Shown: piece by piece, positions 4,335-60,702 of the stretch | Numbering within the stretch: the first letter of the stretch is position 1 | Layout of the letters: each line of letters opens with the position of its first letter | Notes under the pieces: model-generated | Database searches by the model: none | Seen by the model: only the letters and a program-made list of their open reading frames with translations | What the model was told of the DNA's origin: nothing | Program-made: the position numbers and the translations under genes | DNA from: Gracilaria domingensis | Taxonomy: Eukaryota > Rhodophyta > Florideophyceae > Gracilariales > Gracilariaceae | Reading direction: 5' to 3' | Length of the DNA: 64,000 bases | Assembly (NCBI GenBank): GCA_022539475.1 | Contig: VCMS01000107.1 | Location: 222,256 to 286,255 of the forward strand

Positions 4335-4365
<31 letters not shown>

Positions 4366-4404
4366 GGGCGCGGCGCACCACGCGCGCGCGAAGGCGGCGC
4401 TCAT
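3252..4404 (-). CDS. tRNA-dihydrouridine synthase, DusB/NifR3 type, with a one-base frameshift
   Basis: The family uses FMN to reduce uridine in tRNA D-loops. Reading from the ATG at 4404, residues 49-57 give the FMN-barrel start (LAPMAGVTN), residues 127-138 contain the catalytic-cysteine motif (SFGCPAPK, Cys131), and residue 202 begins the HART motif. Near residue 227 the frame is lost. It resumes one base away with PVFGNGDVFT and later GVVIGRG, both expected in order in this family, and runs to the stop at 3252. The 1153-base span is one base longer than a multiple of three, which fits one extra base near 3714-3718. This could be a real inactivating mutation or a sequence error. The first 35 residues are Ala/Pro-rich and could be an organelle leader. 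The bacterial-type architecture suggests a plastid or mitochondrial role, which is inference. Confidence 0.85.
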
Positions 4405-4470
4405 CGCGGCGAGGAAGAAGAGGAACAAAAGGAACAAGAGGAAGCAGAGGCTGCGCCCGCGGCCGGCCGC

Positions 4471-4542
4471 ACCTCCCGCGGGGCTCGAACCCGCGACCAA
4501 CAGATTAAGAGTCTGTCGCTCTACCGACTGAGCTAGGGAGGC
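4471..4542 (-). tRNA. tRNA-Lys(CTT)
   Basis: A 72-nt cloverleaf without intron. The acceptor stem pairs GCCTCCC with GGGAGGT, the D arm is GCTC/GAGC, the anticodon arm is ACAGA-CTCTTAA-TCTGT with anticodon CTT, and the T arm is GCGGG-TTCGAGC-CCCGC with normal B-box bases. CCA is not encoded, as usual for a eukaryotic nuclear tRNA. It lies 66 bases upstream of the dihydrouridine synthase gene on the same strand. Confidence 0.96.
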
Positions 4543-4858
4543 CGCGCGCAGGCCGCGCGCCTGCGTGCGCGCGCGGCGCGCCGCCGCCGCCCATAAAGCG
4601 CGCGCCGCGCCGCCGCCACTGCCGCCGCGCCAAGTGTCGCCGCGCGCAGCCGCGCCCGCGGCGCGCGCCGCCCACACGTTCGCGCGCGCCGCGCCGCGCC
4701 GCGCCGCGCTCGCCGCGCCGCGCGCCGACCTCGCGCCGCGCGCGCCTCGCGCCTCGCGCCTCGCGCCCCCAAATGCGCGCGCCGTGCGCCGCCGCGCCGC
4801 CGCGCCGCCCCGGCCCCCCCCCCCCCGCCGCACCGCCCAGCCGCCGCGCCGCGCCGCC

Positions 4859-5416
4859 ATGACCGCCCGCCCCGCTCCACCCGCCGCCTTCGCGCTGTCC
4901 ACGCCGCTGGCGCCGCGCGCGCGCGCGCTGCCGCGCCGCTCGCGCGCGCCGCCGCGCCGCCGCGCCATGTGCGCGCCGCTGCGCGTGCGCATGGCCGACG
5001 TGCAGCAGGCGGCCGCGTCGGGGTCGGGGTCGGGGTCGGAGCCGCAGCCGCAGCCGCAGCCGCAGCCGGCGGCGGAGGCGCCGCCGCGCGCGGAGGCCGA
5101 GCTGCCGCCGCCCCCGGAGCCGGAGCTGGCGCCGGAGCCCGCCACCACGTCGGCCGCCGACATTCTCAAGTCGCTGCGGGAGGACTCTGCGGCCGACGCC
5201 GCCAGCGCCACGCCGGACGACAAGCCGCGCTCCATGCTGGGCGTGTACCGCGACGTGGACGGCCGCAGCAACGTGTGGGCCGTCGAGCCGCAGGAGCAGG
5301 AGGACACGCGCCCGCAGCTCAGCAAGATCGCGCTGCTGGCCGCCGCCGCCGCCTTCATCATTGCCGCCTTGCTCATTCTGCCGCTCTTGCCGCTCACCAA
5401 TCCGGACCAGCTGTGA
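4859..5416 (+). CDS. Small single-pass membrane protein with plastid-type leader
   Basis: The 185-residue product is read from the ATG at 4859; upstream in-frame codons are extreme-GC, Arg/Ala/Pro noise. Residues 1-45 are rich in Ala, Arg, Pro and Ser, lack acids and end in VRMA, which resembles a red-algal transit peptide and cleavage site. Residues 51-100 are a low-complexity Gly-Ser, Pro-Gln and Pro-Glu linker. Residues 101-150 contain a more conserved-looking stretch (GVYRDVDGRSNVWAVEP). Residues 157-178 form one strongly hydrophobic helix followed by a seven-residue tail. A thylakoid or envelope membrane protein with its domain in the stroma is a reasonable inference. I do not recognise the family. 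A T-run (5459-5471) follows the stop. Confidence 0.65.
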   Translation: MTARPAPPAAFALSTPLAPRARALPRRSRAPPRRRAMCAPLRVRMADVQQAAASGSGSGSEPQPQPQPQPAAEAPPRAEAELPPPPEPELAPEPATTSAADILKSLREDSAADAASATPDDKPRSMLGVYRDVDGRSNVWAVEPQEQEDTRPQLSKIALLAAAAAFIIAALLILPLLPLTNPDQL

Positions 5417-5677
5417 GCCCCGTCGCTTCTCGTAAACACACATACAATACCACAACGGTTTTTTTTTTTTTCTTGTGCTTTATACCTTTGTATAAGAAAA
5501 GAAAGCTTGCAAAGGAGGCGCCCTTCGTCGTTCACTCACTGCGCTTTAGTTATATGCAATTCGCTCACAAGACGCTCATCACCGACAAACACCAAACACA
5601 CGTCCACAAAAAAGAACAACAAAACGGACACAAACAAAACAAAACAAAAACAAAACAAACACAGCAACAACCTCTCG

Positions 5678-8998: not shown

Positions 8999-10165
8999 TC
9001 ACGGCTGCAGCCCGACGGCGCGCGCCCACCACACCCACACGGCGCCGCCCAGCACGTTGTTGGCGGTGCGCAGCGCGGCGCTGCCGGCCTTGGCCGCGCC
9101 GGCGGGGCACAGCGCGAACAGCGCGCGCTCCGCGCCGGCCACCGCCTGGTAGCGCGGGTTGCTGCTGACCACCATGAAGCCCGCCCACGCCAGCGAGTTG
9201 GCCACCACGTCCGGCAGCTCGCGCGCCGCCGCGCCGCCGCCGCCGCCGCGCAGCCGCGCCGCCGCCGCGCGCACCGCCAGCAGCGCCTGCGACGCGCTGG
9301 TGCCCACCACGCTGCCCGCGAAGCCGCACGCCCCGAACAGCGCGCCCTTGTACACAAAGCCCGCCGCGCGCTGCGCCATCGAGTAGCGCCCCGCCGAGAA
9401 CACGTTGGACGGCAGCGCCGCCAGCGCGCCGCCCGACGCGCCCGCCACCGGCGCCAGCAGGTACACCAGCATGAAGTTGAGCGTGCCGCCCACCGCAATG
9501 TCGCACAGCGCAAAGTCCAGCTCCTGCAGGATGCGCTCGCCGCGCGCCGCAATCATCCCCGACGCCGCCAGCCCCAGCCCCACCGTCAGCTCCATCGCGA
9601 TCTTGAACCCAAACGCCGCGTCCGCCGCCACGCGCCGCCGCCACCCCGGCCACGCGCGCGCCAGCAGCCGCGGCAGCCCGCCCTGCACCGCGCGCAGGAA
9701 CGTGCGCAGCTCGTCGTGCGACAGCTGCTGCAGCTCGCCGGGCAGCTGCTCGCGGCTCGTGCCGTATCCCTTGAGCAGCTCGCTCATCTCCTCGTCGTCC
9801 TCCTCCTCGCCGCCGCCGCCGTCGCCGCCGCCGCCGCCGCCCTTGCCGCCCTTGCCGCCCTTGCCCGCGTCGCCGCCCATTCCGCCGCTGCCGTACTGCG
9901 CATCGAACGACTCGTCCGCCAGCGCGTCCGACTCGTACGGGATCGCCGAGAACACGTCCGTGCTGTCCGACGGCACGATGCGCGACACCGTCATCTTGTC
10001 GTCGATCAGTCGCGTAGGCTCAACCTGCCACGCGCAGCGCGCACGTACAACGCAACCCGCGCCGCCGCCTCGCGTACACACGCTGCTGCGTCTGTGCGAT
10101 GACGCCGTGCACGCCGAGAGCGCCGAGACGCCCGACACGAATGCACACCCCTGACGTTGCCTCAT
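8999..10165 (-). CDS. RETICULATA-related (DUF3411) plastid-envelope protein
   Basis: The 388-residue product begins at ATG 10165. Residues 1-50 form a transit-like leader without acidic residues and with the motif CAFVSG, as in red-algal plastid leaders. A Gly/Lys/Asp/Glu linker spans 92-127. Residues 160-385 match the RETICULATA-related family in order: FKIAMELTVGLG, a conserved RGERILQELDF-like segment, LPSNVFSAG, QRAAGFVYKGALFGACGF, VVSSNPRYQAVAG and the terminal ANNVLGG...WWARAVGLQ. Hydrophobic stretches lie near 187-205, 224-242, 268-290 and 318-335. Plant members sit in the plastid inner envelope and affect leaf development and metabolite supply; the transported substrate is unsettled. 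A run of about 18 T on the sense strand follows the stop after three bases. Confidence 0.88.
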   Translation of the reverse strand: MRQRQGCAFVSGVSALSACTASSHRRSSVCTRGGGAGCVVRARCAWQVEPTRLIDDKMTVSRIVPSDSTDVFSAIPYESDALADESFDAQYGSGGMGGDAGKGGKGGKGGGGGGDGGGGEEEDDEEMSELLKGYGTSREQLPGELQQLSHDELRTFLRAVQGGLPRLLARAWPGWRRRVAADAAFGFKIAMELTVGLGLAASGMIAARGERILQELDFALCDIAVGGTLNFMLVYLLAPVAGASGGALAALPSNVFSAGRYSMAQRAAGFVYKGALFGACGFAGSVVGTSASQALLAVRAAAARLRGGGGGAAARELPDVVANSLAWAGFMVVSSNPRYQAVAGAERALFALCPAGAAKAGSAALRTANNVLGGAVWVWWARAVGLQP

Positions 10166-10608
10166 GGAGCGCTTGCTCTTGTAGGCGGGCCGTGCCGCGA
10201 TCGCCCCTTCCCCCCGCGGTTGATCGCGGAGCACTTCTGTCACGTGGCCGGTGCGGCACGAAAGCGGCGCTTCTCGATGGGCCCCTTCACTGTGACTCAA
10301 CAACCTTCTGCTGGAAACGCAGCTGAAACGCTCTCACGTCATGCCGTTGCGAGCGCGCACAAACTTGAGCACGCGGGCACAGCTGTGCCGTCGTCGTCTC
10401 TCATTTTTTTTTTGACTACAATAACCCAAAGCAAAGTTCCAAACAGCCCAATTGTGTAAAATTTGGTTTAGCCGCCAGTACGCACCCCCATCAGTGCTGG
10501 GATGGCCAAAACGTGTCGTCGACGTGTTGCAAGAACACTTCCGTATGCGGAGATCATGCACATTCTTCTGCTTCTTTTGCAGCAGTTCTTGTGCCCACGT
10601 TCCTTCGA
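10166..10608. other. Edge of the gene island, no supported gene
   Basis: This stretch holds the 5' flank of the RETICULATA-related gene and the drop from about 70% GC to much lower GC. No ORF with features is seen. A T-run occurs at 10404-10413. The low-GC transposon tract begins here. Confidence 0.4.
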
Positions 10609-10803: not shown

Positions 10804-11952
10804 GTGTACACACCCTGTCTATCTAGCATCTCGCTTCCGTCAAATATTCGCATACATCTTGCGCTTAATGGGATATTTTACAAAGAACTTCTATACTGTG
10901 AACCGCGATTGCAACAACGATTTAATTGTGGTAATGTTTTAGACAATTTATTACACCAAAATATTCTCTTTACACTATGCATGTTAGCAACAGGGCTTTT
11001 GTTTGGTGAAATGAACGCCATGGCAAACATGTTTTCAGAAAGGCAGCGGTACTATTTTCAAATTGTACTTCAGAATATCTTTAATAGGTTTTAGCCTATG
11101 TACCTCAAACGAAAACAAACATTGCAGGAACTTTGTGCTATTGAAAACAAGTACAATAATTATGAATTTTCTGGCTGCATTGCTTGCATTGACTGTAAAC
11201 GTCTGCATTGAAAAACATGTTCAAAGTCTTTGAAAAGACAGCATCATAACTTCAAAGATAAAAAGCTTGAATTGATAAGTTCTGAGGCTCTCTGTTGCCA
11301 CAGCTTGTATTTCTCGCATTGGCTTGCCGGCAAGTGTAGTACAAACAACAATTTTACTGTTGTGGGCAACATTCTAGACATTCTATCGAAAAAGAGAAGG
11401 ATAACTCTACTGGAAGGCTATAAGGTCAATCTATCTGTTCAACATGACCTGCTCTATTACTTGGTAGATGGATTTTACCTTCCATGGGCAATATTAGTAG
11501 GTCCCAACTATACGCCAGTAAATGAACGAGAAACAACGATGACCAAAGCGCAAGAAAGAATACAAAAAGGTATCCAACGCATTTTCGGTTTCCTACAAGA
11601 CCCCTTAAAACTACTACGACAAAAGATGTTCGATTGGTGTGACGAGAAAATTGTTCTCATGAGCCAGGTTTGCGTAATCCTGCATAACATGTTATTGGAC
11701 ATGGACGTGCGCGGGGAACTAGGAAGCAAAAAAGAGGAAAACGGCCAGCCTGTGAGCATAGTTGAGACGTTTTCTCAAAAGGCATCATTGGAAATCACCG
11801 ACGAAGAGCAAAACGCTGGAAACGATAACAACTCGAGTTTCGGAGGGTTGACCTCTTTATTAGAGCAGTTTCATCTTGTGGGCAACGCACAGGAACACCA
11901 ACAACTTTACCAAGCGCTGACAAACCACTTGTGGGCACTGCGGGGATTCTAA
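10804..11952 (+). pseudogene. PIF/Harbinger transposase (plant-transposon type), two nonsense codons
   Basis: The frame starting at 10804 reads through to 11952 with stops at 11092-11094 (TAG) and 11209-11211 (TGA). Residue patterns follow the DDE family: LCMLATGLLFGE before the first stop, GCIACIDC around the first catalytic Asp, then TNNNFTVVGNILDIL, LLYYLVDGFYLPWAILV with the second Asp, QERIQKGIQRIFGFLQ with the expected acidic position, and VCVILHNMLLDMD near the end. The TGA sits where the family has Trp-Lys, so a TGG to TGA change is likely. A possible N-terminus starts at ATG 10609 in another frame. The protein would cut and paste DNA; this copy is dead. Confidence 0.8.
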
Positions 11953-13980: not shown

Positions 13981-15869
13981 GTGAAGGAGGAAGTAGTACT
14001 ACCAAACATTTTGAGCACTCAAAGCGAACCGACACCAACTTCTGACGATTACGAATTTAACTTTGACAATGTTGGGCAGTTATTCTGGGATACATTTGAC
14101 AGCGAATAATTTGTGGTTACAGCTCTTAAAGCAGCCAAAGAGCGAGAGGTATATGAACAAGTTCCGTATTGCGCAGAATGGTACAAACGCAGCAGCTTGT
14201 ACTTAGACAAAGACACGCTATTAGAAAATCGTAGGCACACAAGAAAGAGCTTGAGTTGTTTCTATTATTTCTGAACAGTTCTTTCTTCAATTTTTTTCGT
14301 TTCTGGACGACCGCTGAGCAAACAAAGCGTGGAAAGAGAACTATATCGCTTCGAACGGACGAGCTGATGGCGTATTTTGGCTTCGACCCTGCCACCTCGG
14401 TGCATCATTTGAATAAACTCAAGGACTAGTGATGCTCTTCCAAGCTGCTCGGAATTTCCTTCTTCAAGAGGATAGTGGGAAAAGACTCGTTCCTGTCCCT
14501 TTGGGAAGCCTTACGAATGTATCCCGCCTACGAGCATGATGTCGCTCGCTCAAATCCATTATGGCATAGTAGGCAATTGCTGGAGTACTACGCCAGAAAT
14601 GCCGCTACACTTGCTGTTCCAATCGAAGTGAGCACACTCGATGAAAACACTGTAAGGTGTAAAGGGCGAACGCGCGCTTGCTCATACATGAAATCTAAAC
14701 CTGTGAAGTTTGGCATTCGTTTTTACGCGGTCGTTGAGTGGTCGCACGCATATTTGCACAGTCGTCAAGACAATGGATCCGGAAATCATTCCGGACAAAG
14801 CCCGGTCCAGAGATATACAAACGTGTTTTGGACTCTCCGTGGTGCAGTGGAGCGAAAGATAGATGGGAGCCTCGTAGCCAAATCTTCGCCATCTGCTCTC
14901 TGGTTCACACAGGTCACACATCAGACTCACTTGCTTTCTACGCCAATGACTGGGAGGTTGATAGTAATGGATAATTTCTACACTCGCCATGTCCTCGCGC
15001 GTCAACTTCAGAGTCTCTCTGACGGCGAGTGTAGAGTTCTCGGCACCGTCCGTTTCAACAACGTTGATGGGGTGAATTGTCCCGCACTCAAAGACGCCAT
15101 TGCAAATATCAAGAACGCTGGTAGAGGTAGCTGGTGCTTCGTTCACGTTTTTGAAAGAAGTGATGTACAAGACGCTCCTTCCCGTGTTGCGAAGAATGCT
15201 GGATTCATCGTCTTTAAGAACCGTACGGTAGTAACGTTTTACAGGAATGACTTAGCGGCTACACTTTCCGAACGCATTCAGAGTCCGGATCATCATGCCA
15301 TAAAATGTGGGCACGGCTTGGTTTCATTAGGAAGGTGGACTGGTAACGAGGCAATGAGTCGTACGACTTTTCAAGTTCCATATGTGATAGTCGCATACAA
15401 TCTTTTCATGAATGGAGTTGACCGCTTTGATCAACTGGGATTCACATCAGCCACATTGCGGAAGGAGAGGAGAGTTCCAATGAGCCTCCTTACTTTCATC
15501 CTCGATGCGAGCATTATAAATGCTCACGGCCTGCTAAACGCAATATCAAACGAAGGTGAATCAATCATTGATGTCGTTCTAATGAAACATCGTATAATAC
15601 AGCAGCTTGTAGCTGAACATGTCGATTACAAACAGCAGCGAGTGGTAACCAGACCTCTTTCTCAGAGTACCCAAAATCAAACGACTCCCAACATGACCAG
15701 CAGGATACAAAACGCAGCTCAAGTTTTGCTCGAGACGGAGGGTCAGAAGAGCGTTCTGTGCCTTCTTTGTATGCTTCTCGAACCCGACAAAGGTATAAAG
15801 TCCGCCATGTACTCGTGCAGTGAGTGTCGAAAGGGGTTCTACGTAAACTGCTTTCGCATTTCACCATAA
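13981..15869 (+). pseudogene. piggyBac transposase (DDE_Tnp_1_7), broken N-terminus
   Basis: The catalytic part from about 14433 to the stop at 15869 is open. It contains the family motifs STLDE and KGRTR (first Asp region), VMDNFYTR (second Asp), GVDRFDQLG (later Asp) and a C-terminal Cys-rich zinc domain (CLLC, then CSECRKGFYVNCF). Upstream, in the same frame, HHLNKLKD is followed by TAG TGA, where the family has Tyr-Trp, so two nonsense changes are likely (14427-14432). Further upstream the match continues in another frame (FDNVGQLFWDTFDSE then a stop), which indicates a frameshift. The enzyme excises and inserts DNA at TTAA without scars. This copy is inactive. Confidence 0.85.
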
Positions 15870-41310: not shown

Positions 41311-42330
41311 TGTTAGAGGTTAAAGCTGGGATCGGAAAGTGATGGAGGTTTTAGCTGGAAAGGGAAGGTTGAGAGAAAGGATGGGGGGAATGAAGGGAAG
41401 TTCGCCAGCTCTGGCTCAGATTTTCTTGGAGGTGCTTGAGTCACAACTTATATAGCACTTCTTCGATACTCTATCATGCGACTCCAACTCTGACCAACAT
41501 GCAACTCACTAACCAGAGACACTCAATACTACCAATCATCTACAGACATAACATGGTAACAGTGCCAAAACGGCTTACAACAGCAGTGCACAACAACGCA
41601 CAACAGTGTACAACAGTGCACAACAATTCCGTGCACTACTGCGCAGCAGTGCACAACCATGCACAACAATGCACACCAATGTAGCAGCCATACACGTCCC
41701 TGACAGTGTACCGACACATTTCGACAGCACACCACAAGCACCACACATCAATGCAGTCAACAATATGACAGCAGACCATAGCAACCCGACCATGCATACA
41801 CACAATGCAGCACCTCACCATTATGACCAGACATGCTTACGGAACATGACACCACACTTCACGTGTTGCTTGCACGCTGTAATCCGTACACGACACCGTA
41901 ATGTGTACGTTCCAGGTACCCAAGTCCCACATCATCAACAAGTACCTGTAAACCAGATGAAGTTAGTCACTCAGCTGCAACATGTTCTATTCATCCATAC
42001 ACACACATTTGCATGTAGCACAACTCAAACATGGTGTAAACTTCACAACACTGACAGTGCTGCAACCTGTACCATGTGTTCACATACAAAGCTTTGCAAC
42101 CTGTACTCCATGACCACTGTACAACCTGTCATCGTTGTACCTTGTGGTCATCCCAGCTGAACGACAGCATTCCAATGTAGCTGTAAACGTTCAATCCATA
42201 CTGAGTATACCACACAGCAACATAGTATACCAAACAGAACAACATCAATCTCGGTTTCACATACCAAGGTACCATTCTAGACTCCACACATCTCAACTGC
42301 TTGATGTCAGTGACAGCATGACTTCCAACA
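41311..42330 (-). repeat. E3 3' LTR
   Basis: 1020 bp, plus-strand TGTTAGAGG to TTCCAACA. The U5-side ~150 bp resemble the E1/E2 LTR; the rest is different. The LTR terminus contains two near copies of a GAGGTTATAGC-like end block about 29 bp apart. Confidence 0.9.
41575..41680. repeat. GTGCAC-rich tandem motif in E3 LTR
   Basis: About nine near-copies of CAGTGCACAACA spaced 8-14 bp, with variants GTGTAC and ATGCAC. GTGCAC is a self-complementary hexamer. The same block is in the other LTR (59858-59956); the main copia LTRs have only two or three copies. Confidence 0.75.
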
Positions 42331-42809
42331 CCCTCCCTCTGTTACTGACTTCAAGCAACCAGCGCTCCTGGCCAAGTACATGCTAAGTAACAAGTCGGGC
42401 AGTCAGGAAACCAGCGTCACTGCACTTAAACCTTACGATGGCCAACGGTGACAACCAAACATCAAGGGCAGTTAGTGTGTGTCCAAGTCCACAGGTGTAC
42501 CGTTCTACCAGTATACCAAGATCATAGTTCTGTTCTATACGATTCGGATGTTCTGGAAACACCCTTCTTTTGGCACATGCTCTGAAATTCTTACTCATCC
42601 TACGTATGGCAACGAAAGCAACAGCTTCCGGTTCAAACAGATATCAACAACAGGCAGTGAGAGCCTAAGTCTGAGGATGTTACTCTGACACCCTCCCTCT
42701 CTCACTGGCTTTGAACTTCTCTCGGAACCAAAATGCACCTCAGAGTCCTTCACAAAAGGGATCTAGACGTCCACAAGTGACCACATTCTAGACACCGAAT
42801 ACAAATGTT
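42331..42809 (-). other. E3 3' internal region with two purine-tract-like sites
   Basis: The purine tract next to the 3' LTR is the inverse of CCCTCCCTCTGTTACTGAC. A second similar site (CACCCTCCCTCTCTCACTGGC) lies near 42690. Both resemble the copia pol end plus tract, which suggests E3 was derived from a copia element and its 3' end was duplicated. No coding sequence is seen. Confidence 0.6.
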
Positions 42810-43498
42810 GCTCCGAGCATGTAACACATAACAACCTCTCGGAGCGCCATTAATCACAGTACTTCAACCAGACATGCAAACACACGCAACCTTCTGGTTC
42901 AAGACCGATTTTCTGAATACCGGACATGCAACAAGTAGCAACCTTCCGGTTCAATATCACTTTCTTAACAGCTGGACATGCGAAACAGAGCAACCTTCCA
43001 GCTCAAGGAATCTCTTCACACTGCGGACATGCAAAATCACAGCAACCTTTCGCGAACAACACATAAGAGAATTGCAACACAAGCAACCTGGACATGCAAA
43101 ATGACAACCTTCCAGGCCCCGTCCATACAAAATGATGTCCTACACACTCAGGCATGAAACACTCAACCTCCTTAGTCAATTAGCTCTTTCATTCACATCG
43201 GACATGCAAACACATAGCAAACTTCCAGTGACAACAAACTGAAACAAAGAGCAAAACAAACATCACAAGCAATGAAACAAACACTCAGGCATGAAACACT
43301 CAACCTCCTGAATCGAACAGCTCTTCCATATCCCAGACATGCATACAAGTAAATTTCTTCTGGTAACATGACAACATGGAGAGCAAAGCATACATCTCAA
43401 GTGATCAATAATAAACTCAGGCATGAAACACTCAACCTCCTGAGTTGAACAGCTCTTCAATTCACACCGGACATGCAAACGAATAGCAACCTTCCGGT
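42810..43498 (-). repeat. Array of about twelve hairpins with covarying stems
   Basis: Units start at 42810, 42866, 42919, 42970, 43023, 43087, 43146, 43198, 43283, 43333, 43414 and 43466. Each has an outer stem of 5-8 bp, then CATG, a variable centre, AACCT, and the complementary stem arm. Stem pairs differ: GCTCCGAG/CTCGGAGC, AACCAGA/TCTGGTT, ACCGGA/TCCGGT, AGCTGGA/TCCAGCT, CCTGGA/TCCAGG, AACTCAGG/CCTGAGTT. Inside, a 3-bp inner stem also covaries (TGC/GCA, TGA/TCA, TGT/ACA). Unit 43198 has a weak outer stem and 43333 a diverged centre. Degenerate copies continue to about 43715. The array lies where gag-pol would be. Confidence 0.85.
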
Positions 43499-43734
43499 AC
43501 AACATAAGTAAAGCGAAGAGCACAGCATACATCCCGGGCATACATAACGACAACCTTCTGAGCATGCGTAAGGAAGTCACGATAACAACAAACAAGTAAC
43601 ATCGCAACTTTCCAAAGTTGATACAAAGAAGAGCTCAGACATGTTCAACAACAAACACCCAGGAAGTGTCATAAACGAATCTCACACACACAGTCTCAAG
43701 CAGGAAACACTCCACCTCCTGAACTGTAGCGAGC

Positions 43735-44151
43735 ATAACAACAACAAACTGCAAGCGATCGGGTGCATAAGGAACTAAGATTTCTGGTACCCTAGGGAGT
43801 CGGACCCCTGACCCCGTATAACCCTCTCTGGTCTCTTGCAAGAACTTGCGCGACCCTGATACTGCAGGTACTGTGACAAACCGAGGTACGCTTCTAGCAA
43901 GCAAACAATCAAGTTCACAAGCGGCCTGATCCTGGAAAGGAGGCCAGCCTACGACACGTCGCCTCCTCGCACCACCGCAGCAGTACGGATCAAAAGCTCG
44001 TTTCAGTTTGTCTTCCCAACAGATCAAGAACCCAACACACAGTCAGGTCACACACAACAAAGGTGAACCACCCCTGTTCGATGCAGTACGTCACGGCACC
44101 CCGTCAACTTCAGCACTGGAGGTACTACCAGGTCTTCCGACCGACACCCTT
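43735..44151 (-). other. E3 leader, distal part
   Basis: Homologous to the distal leader of E1/E6 (matching 50100-50410), including a (CAA)n tract that corresponds to their TTG tract. It ends at CCCTT where E2 inserted. Confidence 0.85.
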
Positions 44152-44933
44152 TGATGGAGGTTATAGCTGGAAAGGGAAGGTTGAGAGAAAGGATGGGGGG
44201 AGTGAAAGGAAGTTCGCCAGCTCTAGCTCGGAATTTATTTGGAGGTGCTCGAGTCACCGCTTATATAGAACTACCTTGCGCAACCATCACAAACCTCCAA
44301 CTCCAAGCAATACCTAAACCACTAGCTAGAGACACTCAATACTACCAATCATCTCCTAACATAACATGGTAACACTCCCACACTATCATGGCAGCTTGTT
44401 GGATGTTGACCTGTGCTGTCACTGAAAACAAAAAGTGCTGGGGAGCATGGGCTGTTTTGGAGGGTGCCGTTGGAAAAGCGCATATGCGCCTCTGCGCAAA
44501 CTCAACGTGAAACGGGCTTCTGATTGGCTACTGCAAATGGTCATATGCATTGTGGTTCGTACAAGTGTTGTGGCGCTAATGGGTTGTTTCCGGGGTACAC
44601 GTGTGTAGCTAGTACACTGGGTATACTGTACATGATGCACAGGGTACACACGTATGTACGTGGACATGTAGGACAGCTTGGTGTAACTTGGGCACTATGG
44701 TGAAGAGTTGATGCGGTGTCAAGAGGATTACAGTGTGGTGTTGTTGGTGACGTAGGACTTGGAGTGAGTTTGTGGTGAAGTGTTGTTGGTGAGCTTGTAC
44801 GTAACTGTTATGGTGTCGTGTAGAGATTACAGTGTGTTGGCACTATGTGAATCTGTGCATGGTCATGGTTATGTGTAGGCACGTAAGTTGTTGTGTACTG
44901 TTGTGCACTGTTGTGCTTTGTTGTTGTAAGCTG
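44152..44933 (-). repeat. E2 outer LTR with internal inversion
   Basis: 44152-44396 is the start of an LTR in minus orientation (plus-strand TGATGGAGG...). It ends with CAGCT, where the remaining LTR part (44397-44928) follows inverted, beginning TGTTGGATG. The inverted part ends GTTGTA and is followed by AGCTG (44929-44933), the inverse of CAGCT, then directly by the next LTR. Restored length is 777 bp, equal to a normal family LTR. Confidence 0.85.
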
Positions 44934-45729: not shown

Positions 45730-48300
45730 TCAAACTTCTATGTGAGGCACACCACCGGCTTCGCGGAACCTCTCGTGCTTCACTCGCGCAAGTGGCTTAT
45801 TCAGCATGTCGGCAACCATGGAATCCGTCGGGCAGTAGAACAGTACAATCGACTTGGCCTGCAGAGCTTCTCGAGTGAAGTGGAACCGAATCTCAATGTG
45901 TTTGGTTCTCCTGTTCACCACTCCATTTCGAGCAAGGTCAATACTTCCTTTGTTGTCAACATACATGAGAGTTGGTTCAACCAGCAGCTTCACAGACCCA
46001 TCTGCTTCCATGCCAATCACACTGCCAATACCGTTCCAAAGTCGCCTAAGCCAGATCGCCTCCTTGGTGCCAGAGCACAAGCTCACGTACTCAGCCTCCG
46101 CACTGGACAGAGCAACTACCTCCTGTTGACGAGACGACCACGACACAGCACCACCGCACACCATGAACAAGTATCCGCTAGTGGACTTGCGGTTGGCAAC
46201 GTCGCCAGCCCAGTCACAGTCCACAGAGCCGTGCAGTTGCAAATCGGTGCTGGAGTCATACGTCAACCCGAACGTGGTAGTGCCATTGAGGTAGCGAAGA
46301 ACACGCTTGACTGCCTTCCAGTGAGTGTTTCCCGGCTTCATAACATACTTGGCCAGCTTAGCAACAGCATATGAGATGTCTGGACGAGTTCCCACAGAGA
46401 GATACATGAGGCAGCCAATCGCCTGACGATACGGTACATGCGTGAGCACTTCATCGTCAACAGACAGGTCCACACCGCACTCCATAGGAGTGTCAACGGG
46501 TTTCGACAGCTGCATGCCAAATCGCTCCAGGACCTTGTTCGTGTACGCGGACTGCGTCAAGTACAGCTCTCGCTTGGTTCTGTCTCGATGGATTTCAAAT
46601 CCAAGAACCATGCGAGCTTCTTTGAGGTCCTTCATGCGGAAACGACTTGACAGCTCTGCCTTCACACGTTCCACGGTTTTCATGCTCGGACTCGCAATCA
46701 GCAAGTCGTCAACATACAGAGCAATGATAACCAAGAAACCCAGTATGATCCCGGTGTAGACACACTCGTCTGCGTCATTCGACTTGAGGTGCATTTCACC
46801 AACAAGGAAGGCGTATATCTTGGCGTGCCACTGTCTTGGTGCTTGTCTAAGCCCATAGATCGCTTTCTTCAGTCGGCACACCAAGTCCTCCTTTCCCTGC
46901 TGTGTGAACCCCATTGGCTGCTCCATGTACACTGTCTCGTCAAGGTCACCGTTCAGAAACGCAGTCTTCACGTCCATCTGGTGCAAGTGAAAGTCTCGCA
47001 CGGCAGTCACAGACAAGATCATTCTGATGGATGTGAACTTCACCACAGGTGCATAAGTCTCTGAGAAGTCCACACCCTCGATCTGCAGGAAGCCTCTTGC
47101 AACCACACGAGCCTTGTAACGCACTGTCGGTTCACCAGATGACGAAGCCTCATACTTCTGCACATACACCCACTTGGACGAAATCACGTTGTTGTCTGCT
47201 GGCCTTGGCACTAGATCCCAAGTGTCGTGCTCCATCAACGATTGATACTCACTTTTCATCGCCTTCTTCCAAGCTTCGGAATCAGGACGTGACACTGCGT
47301 CACCGTACGACGAAGGAGTATCATCACTGGCTGTAAGCAAAGCAATGGCACCACGCCACCATGAGGATGGCGTCTTTCTCTGACGTGTGGATCTACGAAG
47401 AGGCTGCGTCTCTGGCACTCCTGGCTCATCATGGGCGTCTGGTGTGGTGTGTTCATCCGTACTGGCATTCGTGGTACTCTCGTGAGAAGCTGGTGCAGAA
47501 GGGTCATCTTTAGAATCATCTATGGATGTGTCAGAGGTTGAGGCTTCAGCAGCTCCCGACTTGTCGACCAAGTCGATTTCCTCATAGTCCTCGTGTTCAG
47601 AGTGCTCGTCACTTTCAGTTGCAGAGCACTCGTCAAACCTCACATCTCGTGACACAATCACCTTCTTCTTCTGGCTGTCCCACAACTTGTATCCGTGGGA
47701 GCCTGAAGTGTACCCAATGAAGATGGCTTCTACTGCACGTTCTTCCAGCTTCTTCAACTTGTGATCAACCACCTTGTACCAGCAACGGCTACCAAACACA
47801 CGCAGATTGCTCAGATCAGGCTTCTGTCCATGCCACAGCTCAAACGGAGTTACGTCACTCGGAAGCGCTTTGCAGGTCACTCTGTTGCGCACATACACAG
47901 AAACATTCAGAGCCTCAGCCCAAAAGCCTTTTGGCACATTCTTGTGATGCAATATTGACCTTACCAAGTCCATGAGTGTGCGATTGAACCTCTCGGCAAG
48001 CCCGTTCTGCTGTGGATTGTAAGGCAATGTTCGCTGATGCTCAATACCGTACTGCTCCAGTTTCTCGGAGAATCGATTGGACAGGTACTCACCACCGTTG
48101 TCTGTGCGCAAAGCACGCAGCACACTTTTACGAGCGGTGATGGTTAGCACCTTCCTGCCCATCTGGTTCTCCACAAACCTGAGCCACTTGATGAACATCC
48201 GGAACACCTCACCCTTCGTCTTGAGCATGTACAGAAAGCAGTAACGGCTGTGGTCATCGATGAATGTGACAAAGTAGTGCGAGCCTCCCAAGGACTTCAC
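45730..48300 (-). pseudogene. E2 pol, 3' part (integrase core, RT, RNase H)
   Basis: Open from the E1 insertion point to the stop at 45730. It carries FVTFIDDHSRYCFLYM and RTDNGGEYLSNRFSEKL with AERFNRTLMD (integrase DDE), then DVKTAFLNGDLDETVYM, the RT motif YVDDLLIA, and RNase H (GSVDCDWAGDVANRKSTSG, SSAEAEYVSLCSG). The 5' half of the same gene lies at 56956-55414. The first codons in this frame belong to the E1 LTR and are not part of E2. Confidence 0.92.
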
Positions 48301-49317
48301 TGTTGGATGTTGACCCTGTGCTGTCACTGAAAACCAAAAGTGCTGGGGAGCATGGGCTGTTTTGGAGGGTGCCGTTGGAAAAGCGCATATGCGCCTCTGA
48401 GCAAACTCAACGTGAAACGGGCTTCTGATTGGCTACTGCAAATGGTCATATACATTGTGGTTCGTACAAGTGTTGTGGCGCTAATGGGTTGTTTCCAGGG
48501 TACACGTGTGTAGCTAATACACTGGGCATGCTGTTGGATGTTGACCCTGTGCTGTCACTGAAAACCAAAAGTGCTGGGGAGCATGGGTTGTTTGGAGGGT
48601 GCCGTTGGAAAAGCGCATATGCGCCTCTGAGCAAACTCAACGTGAAACGGGCTTCTGATTGGCTACTGCAAATGGTCATATGCATTGTGGTTGGTACAAG
48701 TGTTGTGGCGCTAATGGGTTGTTTCCAGGGTACAAGTGTGTAGCTAATACACTGGGCGTGCTGTACATGATGCACAGGGTACACACGTATGTACGTGGAC
48801 ATGTAGGACAGCTTGTTGTGACTTTGGCACTATGGTGAAGAGTAGATGCGCTGTCAAAAGCTTTACACTGTGGTATTGTTGGTGACGTAGGACTTGGAGT
48901 GAGTTTGTGGTGACGTGTTAGTTGGTGAGCTTGTACGTAACTGTTATGGTGACGTGTACGGATTACAGTGTGTTGGCACTATGTGAATCTGTGCATGGTC
49001 ATGGTTATGTGTAGGCACGTAACTTGATGTGCACGGTTGTGCACTGTTGTGCGTTGTTGTGCTTTGTTGTTGTAAGCTGTCATGATAGTGTGGCAGTGTT
49101 ACCATGTTATGTTAGAAGATGATTGGTAGTATTGAGTGTCTCTAGCTATTGGTTTAGGTATTGCTTGGAGTTGGAGGTTTGCGATGGTTGCGCAAAGTAG
49201 TTCTATATAAGCGGTGACTCGAGCGCCTCCAAGTAAATTCCGAGCCAGAGCTGGCGAACTTCCTTTCATTCCCCCTATCCTTTCTTCAACCTTCCCTTTC
49301 AGCTTCAACCTCTATCA
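48301..49317 (+). repeat. E1 5' LTR with 231-bp 5' duplication
   Basis: 48301-48531 repeats the first part of the LTR and ends GGGCATGC; the full LTR (48532-49317, 786 bp) then starts again with TGTTGGATG. The two pieces differ at several sites. Regulatory signals: palindrome GCGCATATGCGC (48383-48394 and 48613-48624), ATTGGCT (inverse CCAAT), and TATATAA at 49204-49210 about 110 bp before the LTR end. Confidence 0.9.
49204..49210 (+). promoter_or_regulatory. TATA box of E1 LTR
   Basis: TATATAA followed by GCGGTGACTCGAG, kept in most family LTRs. It would set the transcription start in the last ~80 bp of the LTR. Confidence 0.65.
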
Positions 49318-49332
49318 GGTTATGGGCCCAGC
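49318..49332 (+). promoter_or_regulatory. E1 primer binding site
   Basis: GGTTATGGGCCCAGC immediately after the LTR, complementary to the initiator tRNA-Met anticodon arm. Confidence 0.85.
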
Positions 49333-50563
49333 CCCGCTGACCTCTGCCGTTATCGTTCCCTCTCGCCGCTGATTCTCGCCGCTCTCCCTCACCGCCGTTC
49401 ATCCGCTTCGCTGTTTTCCCTTTCGTTCCCTTCTCCGTTGCGTCGGGTGTGTTGACCGTATCGTTGGTCGGTGTTGACTTTCTTCTTTCGGTCGTTCGTT
49501 CCTCCCTGAGGGCGTTTTGTTGGTGGTGGTTCGACGTTGACTTTCTATCGTGATTGTGTTTGGGCGCTCGTTGTTGCCCGTGTTGTCGATCGCTATCCGC
49601 TTCGTTTGGTCTCCCTCTGTTATTATTGTTGGGATCCCCACGTCGTCTTTGTGGGTTCTGATCCGAGAGGTTGAGGACCTTGTGTTGTTGAAGTCTGTGC
49701 ACTTGTGTGTTGTGCTCAGCATTCGTTTCTGTTGAAGTCCGTGCACTGCGTGTGTGCTCGGCAGGTGTGGTGATCACTTGAGTTTCGGTGCGACGAGCGG
49801 TTGATCCGAGCAATCGGGGACGTTAGTCTGGCGGCTTGAACCAAAGCATTTGTTCCGTCTTGCGAGTTTCCCACCGGTCCTTAGGGGCAGATAACGGTGT
49901 CGGTCGAAAGACCTGGTATTCTTCGCGAGGGCATTTGTAGACGGGGTGCCGTGACGTACTGCACTGGACAGGAGGTGGTCCACCTTTATTGTTGCTGACC
50001 TGACTTTGTGTTGGGTTCTTGATCTGTGGCGAAGGCAAACTGAAACGAGCTTTTGATCCGTACTGCTTCGGTGGTGCGGGGAGGCGACGTGTCGTAGGCT
50101 GACCTCTTTTTTAGGATCAGGCCGCTTGTGAACTTCATTGTTTGCTTGCTAGAAGCATACCTCGGTTTGTCATAGTACCTGCAGTTTCAGGGTCGCGCAA
50201 GTTCTTGCAAGAGACCAGAGAGGGTTTTACTTGGTGAAGGCATATCTTCGGTCATTAACCATCCTCTGGAAGTCTCGTAGAGAGCGACGCACCTTCTCCT
50301 AGAACGCAGGAGGAGGTAGACTGCAGAAGGCGTTTCTTACCCGGAGAGTCTACGGGGGTCAGGGGTCCGACTTTCTAGGGTACCAGGAATCTTAGTTCCT
50401 TTTGCACCCGACTATTCATCTTTATTGTTGTTGTTGTTTGTTGTTATTGTTGTTTGTTGTTGTTTGTTGTTGTTGTTTGCTGTTGTTGTTTACCGCTGTC
50501 GTTTGCTATTGCCGCCTGTCTGCCACCGCATTATCTGGTTCGCTGCAGTTCCTCTCTTACATC
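49333..50563 (+). other. E1 untranslated leader
   Basis: About 1.23 kb without coding features. It ends in a (TTG)n tract (50420-50500) just before gag. Short ORFs on both strands reflect composition. The E6 leader has the same length and few differences. Confidence 0.85.
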
Positions 50564-53500
50564 ATGGACTCGTTTAGTGGGCTCAAGATCGAGAAGTTAG
50601 GTGAGGATAACTTCCATACTTGGAAGCAGAAGATTCAGTATGTACTTGCACTGAAAGACCTCAAGAACCATCTCACCACTTCTGCACCCACGGATGAAGA
50701 GGAACTGGTAAAGTGGCAAATCCGCGACGAAAGGGCTAGAGCTATCATTGGACTCACGCTTGCCGACGAGCACTTGGATCACATTCGAGACATCGAGACT
50801 GCTGCTGACGCATGGAAGGCCATTTGCAATGTGTTTCAACGTAAGACTCTTCTTAACCGAATCAACGCCAGACGTGCCTTCTACTCTGTCAAAATGCGCG
50901 AGGACGAGAAGATGTTGCAATTCATCAATCGTGTTCGGCACTTGGCCTCCGACCTCAAGAGTATGGATGTCAACGTTGAAGAAGAGGACATTGCTATGGC
51001 TGCTCTATGTGGACTTCCGGATCGTTTTGAGCACCTCATTGTTGCAATTGACACCACGATCGGAGATCGCCAACTCACTATGGAGTTTGTGAAGAGCCGT
51101 CTATTGCAAGAAGAGCAACGTATGAGTGATCGTGCCAAGGAGGAGTCCGGTGTTGATGCTGCACTCTTGGGACGCCAGTTTCGTAGGAAGTCATTGAAGT
51201 CGGTTGTGTGTTACTATTGTGGCATAAAGGGTCATATCCAGAAGAACTGTTTCAAAAAGCAACGTGATGGGGCTAACAAGGATCAGATCGATGCTGCTCA
51301 CCCAAGTGTACATACCGCGCTCAACGATGAGCAAGGTACGGGCGGCAGCGATTCTGACTTTGTATGCCTCATTGCGAATGGTGCCAACAAGGCCACTAAC
51401 AGTGACTGGATTGTTGACTCTGGAGCTACTGCGCACATGACTTATGATGACTCAATGTTCCAAACGTTTGAGACAAAGGTGTCGTCGGGTGTGAGTACCG
51501 GCAATGATTCCAAGTTGCAGTCTGTTGGTCACGGAAGTGTGGAGCTCGATCTGACTGTGGAAGGGTCCAAACGTAAGTGCAAGCTAAAGCAGGTGGTGCA
51601 CGTGCCCAACTTGCGGTACCACTGTTGTCAGTGTCGCAGATATGTGATCTGGGCTGCACGGTAGTGTTTGACAAAGAAAAGGTATGTGTGTACAAGGGGT
51701 CAAAAGTGGTTGCCGTTGGGCGCCGCGTCAAAGACCTGTACTACCTTTGCACTGCTGCAGATCAGTTCACGGATACGGATACGGACAGTGCGCTTGTGTC
51801 AGACTTGTCTCTTTGGCATGCTCGAATGGCTCATGTGAATGTGGAAGGCATCAAGCAGATGGTTCGAAACGGTGTTGTGTCAGGTCTGAATGTGGATGTG
51901 GCTCAGAAGCTGGATGTGTGTGGCTCTTGTGTAGTGGGCAAAACAACCCGTGCTCCGACTCCCAAGCAAGGGGGGGAACGAGCTGAACACGTACTGGACC
52001 TGGTACACTCTGATATATCGTGTCCAGTGAACGTGAAGTCCTTGGGAGGCTCGCACTACTTTGTCACATTCATCGATGACCACAGCCGCTACTGCTTCTT
52101 GTACATGCTCAAGACGAAGGATGAGGTGTTCCGGATGTTCATCAAGTGGCTCAGGTTTGTGGAGAACCAGATGGGCAGGAAAGTGTTAACCATCACCGCT
52201 CGCAAGAGTGTGTTGCGTGCATTGCGCACTGACAATGGTGGTGAGTACTTGTCCAATCGGTTCTCCGAAAAGCTTGAGCAGTACGGTATTGAGCATCAGC
52301 GAACTGTGCCTTATAATCCACAGCAGAACGGGCTTGCCGAGAGGTTCAACCGCACACTCATGGACTTGGTCAGGTCAATGTTGCATCACAAGAATGTGCC
52401 AAAAAGCTTTTGGGCTGAGGCTCTGAATGTTTCTGTGTATGTGCGCAACAGAGTGACCTGCAAAGCGCTTCCGAGTGACGTGACGCCGTTTGAGCTGTGG
52501 CATGGACAGAAGCCTGATCTGAGCAATCTGCATGTGTTTGGTAGCCGTTGCTGGTACAAGGTGGTTGATCACAAGTTGAAGAAGCTGGAAGAGCGTGCAG
52601 TGGAGGCCATCTTCATTGGGTACACTTCAGGCTCCCACGGGTACAAGTTGTGGGACAGCCAGAAGAAGAAGGTGATTGTGTCACGAGATGTGAGGTTTGA
52701 CGAGTGCTCTGCAACTGAAAGTGACGAGCACTCTGAAGACGAGGACTATGAGGATATCGACTTGGTCGACAAGTCTGGATCTGCTGAAGGCTCAACCTCC
52801 GACACATCCGCCGATCATTCTGAAGATGATCCTTCTGCACCAGCTTCTCATGAGAGTACCACGAATGCCAGTACGGATGAACACACCACACCAGATCCAC
52901 AAGATGAGCCGGAAGTGACAGAGACGCAGCCCCTTCGTAGATCCACACGTCAGAGAAAGACGCCATCCTCGTGGTGGCGTGGTGCCAGTGCTTTCCTTAC
53001 AGCCAGTGATGATACTCCTTCGTCGTACGGTGACGCAGTGTCACGTCCTGATTCCGAAGCTTGGAAGAAGGCGATGAAGAGTGAGTACGAGTCATTGATG
53101 GAGCATGACACATGGGATCTAGTGCTAAGGCCAGCAGACAGCAACGTGATTTCGTCCAAGTGGGTGTATGTACAGAAGTATGAGGCTTCGTCATCTGGTG
53201 AACCGACAGTTCGTTACAAGGCTCGTGTGGTTGCAAGAGGCTTCCTGCAGATCGAGGGTGTGGACTTCTCAGAGACATATGCACCTGTGGTGAAGTTCAC
53301 ATCCATCAGAATGATCCTGTCAGTGACTGCCGTACGAGACTTCCACTTGCACCAGATGGATGTGAAGACTGCCTTTCTGAACGGTGACCTTGACGAGACA
53401 GTGTACATGGAGCAGCCAATGGGATTCACACAGCAGGGAAAGGAGGACTTGGTGTGCCGACTGAAGAAAGCGATCTATGGGCTTAGACAAGCACCAAGAC

Positions 53501-54603
53501 AGTGGCACGCCAAGATATACGCCTTCCTTGTTGGTGAAATGCACCTCAAGCCGAATGACGCAGACGAGTGTGTCTACACCGGGATCATACTGGGTTTCTT
53601 GGTTATCATTGCTCTGTATGTTGACGACTTGCTGATTGCGAGTCCGAGCATGAAAACCGTGGAACGTGTGAAGGCAGAGCTGTCAAGTCGTTTCCGCATG
53701 AAGGACCTCAAAGAAGCTCGCATGGTTCTTGGATTTGAAATCCATCGAGACAGAACCAAGCGAGAGCTGTACTTGACTCAGTCAGCGTACACGAACAAGG
53801 TCCTGGAGCGATTTGGCATGCAGCTGTCGAAACCCGTTGACACTCCTATGGAGTGCGGTGTGGACTTGTCTGTTGACGAGGAAGTGCTCACGCATGTACC
53901 GTATCGTCAGGCGATTGGCTGCCTCATGTATCTGTCTGTGGGAACTCGTCCAGACATCTCATATGCTGTGGCTAAGCTGGCCAAGTATGTTGAGAAGCCG
54001 GGAAACACTCACTGGAAGGCGGTCAAGCGTGTTCTTCGCTATCTCAATGGCACTACCACGTTCGGGTTGACGTATGGCTCCAGCACCGATTTGCAACTGC
54101 ACGGCTATGTGGACTCTGACTGGGCTGGCGATGTTGCCAACCGCAAGTCCACTAGTGGATACTTGTTCATGATGTGCGGTGGTGCTGTGTCGTGGTCGTC
54201 TCGTCAACAGGAGGTAATTGCTCTGTCGAGTGCAGAGGCTGAGTACGTGAGCTTGTGCTCTGGCACCAAGGAGGCGATCTGGCTTAGGCGACTTTGGAAC
54301 GGCATTGGCAGTGTGATTGGCATGGAAGCAGAGAGGTCTGTAAAGCTGCTGGTTGAACCAACTCCCATGTATGTTGACAACCAGGGCAGCATTGACCTTG
54401 CTCGAAATGGAGTGGTGAACAGGCGAACCAAGCATATTGAAATTCGGTTCCATTTCACTCGAGAAGCTCTGCAGGCCAAGTCGATTGTACTGTTCTACTG
54501 CCCGACGGATTCCATGGTTGCCGACATGCTGAATAAGCCGCTTGCGCGAGTGAAGCACGAGAGGTTCCGCGAAGCCGGTGGAGTGTTTCACATAGAAGTT
54601 TGA
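50564..54603 (+). pseudogene. E1 gag-pol polyprotein, copia type, one-base deletion
   Basis: Starts ATG 50564 (MDSFSGLKIEKLGEDNFHTW). Gag ends with a CCHC knuckle CYYCGIKGHIQKNC (Cys216 onward). Protease has DSGATAH (Asp285). A C is missing between 51622 and 51623 relative to E6, so the frame moves; it resumes as LLSVSQICDLG. Integrase has LWHARMAHVN with CGSC (zinc finger), LVHSDIS, RTDNGGEY and NGLAERFNRTL. RT has YVDD at 53617-53628. RNase H has SDWAGDVANRKSTSG and SSAEAEYVSL. With the base restored by comparison it would encode about 1346 residues in one frame, the normal copia layout. Apart from this, no stop is seen. Confidence 0.95.
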
Positions 54604-54610
54604 AGTCAGT

Positions 54611-54623
54611 GACAGAGGGGGGG
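54611..54623 (+). promoter_or_regulatory. E1 polypurine tract
   Basis: GACAGAGGGGGGG directly before the 3' LTR, the primer for plus-strand synthesis. Confidence 0.85.
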
Positions 54624-55413
54624 TGTTGGATGTTGACCCTGTGCTGTCACTGAAAACGAAAAAGTGCTGGGGAGCCTGGGTTGTTTTGGAGGGTGCCGTT
54701 GGAAAAGCGCATAAGCGCCTCTGAGCAAACTCAACGTGAAACGGGCTTCTGATTGGCTACTGCAAATGGTCATATGCATTGTGGTTGGTACAAGTGTTGT
54801 GGCGCTAATGGGTTGTTTCCAGGGTACAAGTGTGTAGCTAATACACTGGGCGTGCTGTACATGATGCACAGGGTACACACGTATGTACGTGGATATGTAG
54901 GATAGCTTGATGTGACTTTGGCACTATGGTGAAGAGTAGATGCGCTGTCAAAAGGTTTACACTGTGGTATTGTTGGTGACGTAGGACTTGGAGTGAGTTT
55001 GTGGTGACGTGTTAGTTGGTGAGCTTGTACGTAACTGTTATGGTGGCGTGTACGTATTACAGTGTGTTGGCACTATGTGAATCTGTGCATGGTCATGGTT
55101 ATGTGTAGGCACGTAACTTGATGTGCACGGTTGTGCACTGTTGTGCGTTGTTGTGCTTTGTTGTTGTAAGCTGTCATGATAGTGTGGCAGTGTTACCATG
55201 TTATGTTAGAAGATGATTGGTAGTATTGAGTGTCTCTAGCTAGTGGTTTAGGTATTGCTTGGAGTTGGAGTTGTGCGATGGTTGCGCAAAGTAGTTTTAT
55301 ATAAGCGGTGACTGGAGCGCCTCCAAGTAAATTCCGAGCCAGAGCTGGCGAACTTCCCTTCACTCCCCCTATCCTTTCTCTCAACCTTCCGTTCTCAGCT
55401 ACAACCTCTATCA
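54624..55413 (+). repeat. E1 3' LTR
   Basis: 790 bp, TGTTGGATG to CCTCTATCA, followed by the target copy TTCAC. The palindrome is altered to GCGCATAAGCGC. Confidence 0.93.
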
Positions 55414-59587: not shown

Positions 59588-60607
59588 TGTTAGAGGTTAT
59601 AGCTGGGATCGGAAAGTGGTGGAGGTTATAGCGGGAAAGGGAAGGTTGAGAGAAAGGATGGGGGGAATGAAGGGAAGTTCGCCAGCTCTGGCTCAGATTT
59701 TCTTGGAGGTGCTTGAGTCACAACTTATATAGCACTTCTTCGCTACTCTATCATGCGACTCCAACTCTGACCAACATGCAACTCACTAACCAGAGACACT
59801 CAATACTACCAATCATCTACAGACATAACATGGTAACAGTGCCAAAACGGCTTACAACAGCAGTGCACAACAACGCACAACAGTGTACAACAGTGCACAA
59901 CAATTCCGTGCACTACTGCGCAGCAGTGCACAACCATGCACAACAATGCACACCAATGTAGTAGCCATACACGTCCCTGACAGTGTACCGACACATTTCG
60001 ACAGCACACCACAAGCACCACACATCAATGCAGTCAACAATATGACAGCAGACCATAGCAACCCGACCATGCATACACACAATGCAACACCTCATCATTA
60101 TGACCAGACATGCTTACGGAACATGACACCACACTTCACGTGTTGCTTGCACGCTGTAATCCGTACACGACACCGTAATGTGTACGTTCCAGGTACCCAA
60201 GTCCCACATCATCAACAAGTACCTGTAAACCAGATGACGTTAGTCACTCAGCTGCAACATGTTCTATTCATCCATACACACACATTTGCATGTAGCACAA
60301 CTCAAACATGGTGTAAACTTCACAACACTGACAGTGCTGCAACCTGTACCATGTGTTCACATACAAAGCTTTGCAACCTGTACTCCATGACTACTGTACA
60401 ACCTGTCATCGTTGTACCTTGTGGTCATCCCAGCTGAACGACAGCATTCCAATGTAGCTGTAAACGTTCAACTCATACTGAGTATACCACACAGCAACAT
60501 AGTATACCAAACAGAACAACATCAATTTCGGTTTCACATACTAAGGTACCATTCTAGACTCCACCCATCTCAACTGCTTGATGTCAGTGACAGCATGACT
60601 TCCAACA
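59588..60607 (-). repeat. E3 5' LTR
   Basis: 1020 bp, the partner of 41311-42330, with about 15 substitutions and no length change by eye. Flanked by CGACG at 60608-60612. Confidence 0.92.
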
Positions 60608-60702
60608 CGACGTACCGAAGGGTGGCTTCCTTTTCAGAATCAGGCCGCGTGTGGGCATTATTGTCTGCTCGTTAGGAGCGTACCTTGGTTTGTCATAGTA
60701 GC
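60608..60702 (+). other. E5 leader, second part
   Basis: Continues the E5 leader after E3 (CGACGTACCGAAGGGTGGC) and runs until E6 begins. Confidence 0.8.

Follow-up and report, generated by a model that had tools for sequence, protein, structure and literature searches.

Tandem hairpins with covarying stems in a gene-less copia-type LTR element of the red alga Gracilaria domingensis

A 64,000-nucleotide stretch of Gracilaria domingensis DNA (the window) contains an array of same-shape hairpins within a non-autonomous copia element, here called E3, which resembles the large retrotransposon derivatives (LARDs) and lies on the minus strand. Each copy of the array holds about 13 hairpins, in which the internal-loop letters hardly vary and the stems covary from unit to unit; some of the hairpins stand on paired stalks. 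RNA-level selection on the E3 transcript is likely; the strand on which it acts is less sure.

In the window the array occupies 42810–43736 of the minus strand. About twelve hairpins had been predicted at 42810–43498, and all twelve are there as described: U1 (42810–42845), U2 (42866–42899), U3 (42919–42950), U4 (42970–43003), U5 (43023–43053), U6 (43087–43116), U7 (43146–43176), U8 (43196–43230), U9 (43283–43313), U10 (43333–43363), U11 (43414–43446) and U12 (43466–43498). U5 lies within the stalk 43011–43016/43065–43070, U8 within 43183–43189/43246–43252, U10 within 43320–43324/43380–43384 and U12 within 43452–43458/43515–43521. U10 is decayed in the window copy (E 0.015). On the same strand beyond this span are a decayed further unit at 43533–43562 (covariance model E 0.62) and a good one at 43695–43723 (E 9e-7), the latter outside the original prediction. 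On the plus strand CATG follows the left arm in 12/12 units, and AACCT, said to precede the right arm nearly always, does so in 10/12 (exceptions at 43203 and 43338). The predicted spacing also holds, with CATG-to-CATG distances of 48–65 nt and two gaps of 84 and 87.

The plus-strand plan of a unit is an outer stem, CA, an inner 3-bp stem, a loop, the inner stem again, ACCT and the outer stem, which in the sense RNA reads stem-AGGU-UGC-loop-GCA-UG-stem. Across 33 units AGGU never changes at its A, first G or U, nor UG at its G; the second G of AGGU varies in a few. A covariance model of the unit matched only in this array within the 64 kb, at E values up to 5; a second model added two partial matches (E 2.5) in E3-type LTRs of the window. 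When 36500–64000 was searched against Rfam 15, the array had no match even at E 5, and four sub-threshold matches fell elsewhere in the interval. Outside this genome, 80 of at least 120 IMG/VR matches to the motif and 46 GTDB contigs showed a single match each, with no array visible in the match rows.

Pairing between a unit's own arms was compared with that of shuffled arms. With right arms permuted among the 12 window units, own arms paired at 65/72 positions against a shuffled mean of 38.9, and 0/200,000 permutations scored as high; the count rose to 1/200,000 without two ACTCAGG-arm repeats and to 7/200,000 without all three. For the 12 units to which the original prediction and the fold had pointed (those at 43533 and 43695 being left out), 92.6% of cells were paired compared with 72.9% on shuffling (0/500), and 18–51% when the partner was slid by 1–3 columns. 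Between these units both sides change in each of the six outer pairs and in one inner pair, in line with the paired changes predicted, and RNAalifold, given no structure, recovered the same unit structure. A set of 33 sense units from the copies L046, L050 and L052 (28 distinct rows), whose selection by a structure model leans towards pairing, gave 97.2% standard pairs versus 77.3% shuffled (0/500). It comprises 33 of 36 model matches, the three weakest-looking (L046 2439–2468, L050 1081–1111 and L052 2048–2077) having been left out. Double-changed cells numbered 56 in these units versus 17.7 on shuffling (0/500), at least 12 pair replacements remained when each distinct double-changed pair type was counted once, and slid partners destroyed pairing. 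Shuffles overstate significance because the units are paralogues related by duplication; the slid-partner controls keep this relatedness and still fail to pair. Own arms beat both controls, which is the kind of covariation that selection on RNA structure gives, as had been proposed.

The covariation is seen between units; across copies, a given unit seldom changes on both sides in 40 aligned sequences. The only clear double-sided change is pair 43335/43361 of unit 10, seen as A-T in 12 copies, G-C in 8, G-T in 10 and A-C in 8. In unit 11, one outermost position pairs in just two of the 40 copies, as A-T in one and as C-G in the other, and is unpaired in 38. This across-copy test is low in power, since most array copies are 87–95% identical to the window array. 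Subfamily variants stood at 7/148 in stems versus 29/308 in linkers (p 0.096), so stems were not significantly poorer in them.

The window copy of E3 ends in a 3' LTR at 41311–42331 (minus; sense TGTTGGAAG...CTCTAACA). Its E3-specific part (41640–42331) occurs in at least 40 genomic places (40 of 147 candidates scored), its end part (41340–41639) is 77–81% identical to other copia LTRs within the window, and a 202-aa frame in this LTR had no Pfam match. The polypurine tract (PPT; 42332–42342, minus) reads AGAGGGAGGG in sense, then TGTTGG, a layout shared with autonomous copia. Between array and PPT lies an E3-specific 3' region (42343–42809, minus). It contains a second PPT-like tract at 42691–42703, which in sense precedes the real PPT by about 357 nt and is followed by TGTCAGAG, which could be an older LTR start remnant or a central PPT. 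On the other side of the array, 43737–44151 (minus) is part of the 5' leader, with 84–90% identity to other copia leaders of the window (49893–50432 and others). The 5' end of this copy is broken by rearranged LTR sequence at 44152–44933, of which 44152–44397 is LTR end part in the E3 direction and 44397–44933 LTR sequence in the opposite direction. The same end carries a duplicated LTR, rearranged or inverted, in the form of an inverted repeat of LTR sequence (44425–44933/45171–45679; 509 nt, 98% complementary, 237 nt between the arms). A lone E3-type LTR stands at 59590–60608, with autonomous-type leader sequence on one side.

Complete E3 copies run in the order LTR (~988 bp), primer-binding site (PBS), leader (~1.1 kb), array, 478-nt 3' region, PPT and LTR. 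The PBS, GGTTATGGGCCCAG, directly follows the LTR and presumably resembles the anticodon arm of initiator-methionine tRNA; the leader is ~85% identical to the autonomous leader along its length. Seven two-LTR copies measure 4101–4513 bp in total, with an internal region of ~2.5 kb. Their LTR pairs are 98.8–100% identical, and movement of E3 has therefore been recent. A 5-bp target-site duplication is present in 3/7 (L042, L043 and L046), not clear in L044, L045 and L048, and absent from L047.

Searching with the array returned at least 40 copies in the genome (40 of 59 candidates scored). In these 40, which were found by the array itself, the E3 3' region adjoins the array in 40/40, an E3 LTR lies in the flank in 40/40 and the leader adjoins in 36/40. 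Six further array copies (L042, L043 and L049–L052) have the 3' region adjoining in four (not L049 or L052) and the leader in four (not L049 or L050). An array-independent LTR search gave seven fetched two-LTR intervals of E3 size (L042–L048), two of them chosen for being absent from the array-search list, and the array is present in 7/7. Covariance model R2 counted 481 hairpin matches in 37 copies, about 13 each (300 of the 481 listed), leaving out L001, L008 and L012 and with flanks that may contain pieces of neighbours. Some E3 copies have gained a two-hairpin repeat of ~135 nt and others have lost units; in L033, L034, L035 and L037 the array is longer by a repeated ~135-nt stretch equal to one extra hairpin pair. 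An 8.3-kb interval between two E3 LTRs (L041, on C340) was considered as an autonomous element with E3 LTRs. It holds an alanyl-tRNA synthetase-like frame (1961–2644), a hAT dimerisation frame (3976–4764) and copia pieces, and no array; it is therefore not one element.

The window also carries an autonomous-type copia relative on the plus strand at 48532–55413, with LTRs at 48532–49317 and 54624–55413, a PBS at 49318, a leader extending to ~50411, a gag frame with a CCHC knuckle (50396–51664) and a pol frame (51577–54603). A 230-nt tandem duplication of LTR sequence (48300–48764, 97% matches) lies at its 5' LTR. The pol frame is 44% identical to Chondrus crispus, the best organism-named match among the 120 listed, other matches reaching 75%. 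E3 and the autonomous copia of this genome share PBS, leader, PPT and LTR end, and by these sequence features E3 qualifies as a non-autonomous member of the Ty1/copia superfamily. Its description as a non-coding LTR element proved apt, for E3 has no gag-pol and, among the frames listed in L042, the longest measures 179 aa from stop to stop; the array does sit where the relative has gag-pol. An autonomous copia as helper, another part of the original prediction, is likely from the common PBS, leader, PPT and LTR end. Both covariance models, run with filters off on the autonomous copia at 48.5–55.4 kb, found no such hairpin, the best scores being 9.9 and 9.8 bits. The 9.8-bit match in the leader (49967–50004) was not counted, as AGGU is not kept in two other leader stretches compared by eye. 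With the motif missing from the only autonomous copia scanned, there is no obvious sign that the Gag of that copia evolved to bind the array. Some 1.1 kb of the autonomous leader is kept in E3, a region in which one would expect packaging signals.

The original prediction described the hairpins on what turns out to be the antisense strand. PBS, PPT and leader show that sense, and with it the element transcript, corresponds to the minus strand; a TATATAAG box in the LTR agrees with this. To compare strands, non-Watson-Crick states were tallied at 114 stem pairs of the 12 units over 40 copies. States present in at least 5 copies were 10 A-C on plus (G-U in sense), 2 G-T on plus and 3 others; those in 3–4 copies were 0 sense-type G-U, 3 antisense-type and 2 others; and those in 1–2 copies were 11 sense-type, 12 antisense-type and 25 others. 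With the threshold at 5 copies the tally favours sense by 10 to 2 (binomial p 0.019; Fisher against private variants 0.07); lowered to 3 copies it becomes 10 to 5 (one-sided p ~0.15), which makes the outcome sensitive to the threshold. Unit 8 was lengthened from 3 to 7 pairs after the folds had been seen, and without the state this added the tally is 9 to 2 (p ~0.03). Outside the hairpins, propagated transitions comprised 14 A/G and 10 C/T and private ones 53 A/G and 32 C/T. Over the 40 copies, 3035/3096 outer cells (98.0%) are standard in sense versus 2899/3096 (93.6%) in antisense. The four stalks, picked by eye from folds, are paired in 995/995 cells in sense and 987/995 in antisense; three of the four are invariant and hence say little. 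The U12 stalk has two variants (in 5 and 3 copies), both G-U in sense.

Folding energies lean the other way. The array of L046 has a fold z of -3.2 in sense and -7.0 in antisense, and the window-copy array -2.2 and -5.1, respectively. Within the window copy U5, U7, U8 and U10 pair better on plus, U9 on minus and the other seven about alike. For L046 the sense z is -1.3 in the leader and -0.3 in the 3' region, neither being significant on either strand. In the window copy the flank 42090–42809 (part of the LTR plus the 3' region) outdoes its shuffles on either strand (z -3.8 and -3.6), which indicates that structure is not confined to the array; the E3 LTR may hold structure of its own. We read the antisense advantage in z as a probable composition effect, given that good folds also come from shuffles of the G/U-rich sense strand. 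Of the two, sense RNA is probably the selected molecule.

Readings other than a selected sense RNA structure fare unequally against these data. That the array is an ordinary minisatellite-like tandem repeat, with arms matching by common descent only, is very improbable and already contradicted by own-arm pairing that exceeds between-unit shuffles and slid partners, even if some copies expand by hairpin pairs of ~135 nt and tandem repeats are on record for LTR elements. Template switching is common during reverse transcription of LTR elements, and copying of one arm onto the other in reverse transcription or replication could yield covariation by mutation without selection; switching during DNA replication can create and repair stems (PMC8794818). 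This process predicts equal pairing on both strands, contrary to the strand difference in outer cells (the strand test on wobble states being modest), and leaves the invariant asymmetric internal loop and the separately covarying inner pair unexplained; we think it decidedly improbable. The functional strand might instead be the antisense one (window plus), as antisense RNA or single-stranded cDNA. Its stronger fold z-scores, the four units that pair better on plus and the wobble states in 3–4 copies (3/3 antisense-type) speak for it. Against it stand the PBS, PPT and leader, the 10 to 2 excess of G-U on minus among states in at least 5 copies, both U12 stalk variants, and the unproved possibility that the z difference stems from G/U-rich shuffles folding better. 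On balance an antisense function appears improbable.

If the sense RNA is the selected form, its role is harder to assign. That the loop letters are fixed while the stem letters are free suggests a partner that reads the loop within a helical frame, and ~13-fold repetition suggests many partner molecules per RNA. We tentatively propose that the array is a structured-RNA cassette in the E3 sense transcript, bound by the Gag/nucleocapsid of the autonomous copia and aiding particle entry. The repeated invariant loop (AGGU/UG in sense) would be a putative protein-binding site that places many proteins on one RNA. Gag/nucleocapsid of the autonomous copia, with its CCHC knuckle, is the most likely protein, and we infer that Gag is the obvious partner because gene-less E3 must use that of another element. 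Binding would favour E3 RNA for entry into virus-like particles, in which helper enzymes would carry out its reverse transcription and integration. E3 was presumably moved in trans by an autonomous partner, as its recent insertions and the termini common to both suggest. A serious though doubtful competitor is that the sense structure is real and serves another end, such as stability, nuclear export or retention, ribosome blocking, dimerisation, or binding or titration of a host protein. It draws on the same covariation, wobble states and sense pairing, and absence of the motif from the autonomous copia scanned fits a need that arises in a gene-less element only; nothing positive singles out any one such role, and the array matches no Rfam family. 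Since the autonomous copia scanned has no such hairpin and E3 retains the leader, the array could have been added to strengthen competition, or could instead act in RNA stability or through a host factor. A more specific version of the Gag-binding proposal, in which gene-less E3 swapped gag-pol for a multivalent packaging cassette whose GG-containing loop binds helper Gag cooperatively and out-competes helper RNA, we regard as rather unlikely.

To our knowledge, the entry of RNA from a non-autonomous LTR element into another element's particles is poorly known. E3 has been active recently, and its array is a compact, repeated RNA motif with strong covariation, whose 33-nt unit is a ready test object for helper Gag binding. 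Should the function differ, it would still be a well-supported structured non-coding RNA cassette without an Rfam match. The barley copia element BARE2 keeps most of its coding sequence. Unable to make Gag, it still has its signals for dimerisation and packaging, and its RNA enters virus-like particles (PMC3735527); E3 differs in having no gag-pol and in carrying the hairpin array. RNA viruses offer a functional analogy only: multiple dispersed RNA motifs that share a coat-protein recognition element promote capsid assembly (PMC6281560), whereas E3 has a compact array of putative binding sites in a non-coding LTR element.

LARDs, for example Sukkula of grasses, are the closest kind to E3. They are LTR elements whose core domain codes for no protein and which are assumed to be moved in trans. 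E3 likewise lacks gag-pol coding capacity and has a sizeable conserved internal domain of ~2.5 kb (frames from L042 and the window LTR). LARDs are longer than ~4 kb, and the seven E3 copies measured above lie just at this limit. E3 departs from them in its internal domain of tandem same-shape hairpins with an invariant internal loop, and in its red algal host. Assignment to the TRIMs, which have short LTRs and almost no internal domain, was rejected given the ~988-bp LTR and ~2.5-kb interior of E3. TRIMs with small-RNA-derived parts (Cassandra, Helenus and Ajax) are also non-autonomous LTR elements with structured-RNA-like portions, but these are 5S rRNA- or tRNA-like and sit in the LTR (PMC10886601, PMC7215508), whereas the E3 array is internal, larger and without a Rfam match. 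Assignment of the array to a known RNA family was likewise rejected, with no Rfam 15 match at gathering score. No described LTR element with such a hairpin array was found in the open-licence PMC literature, covered mostly by title and abstract start.

Elsewhere in the window, transposase-like frames (Plant_tran and DDE_Tnp_1_7) lie at 11212–11952 and 14433–15869. Host genes for a dihydrouridine synthase and a RETICULATA-like protein lie in GC-rich DNA at 2803–5535 and 8999–10333. For the RETICULATA-like gene, Gracilariopsis chorda provides the closest organism-named match (56% over 62% of the query), with other matches up to 64%.
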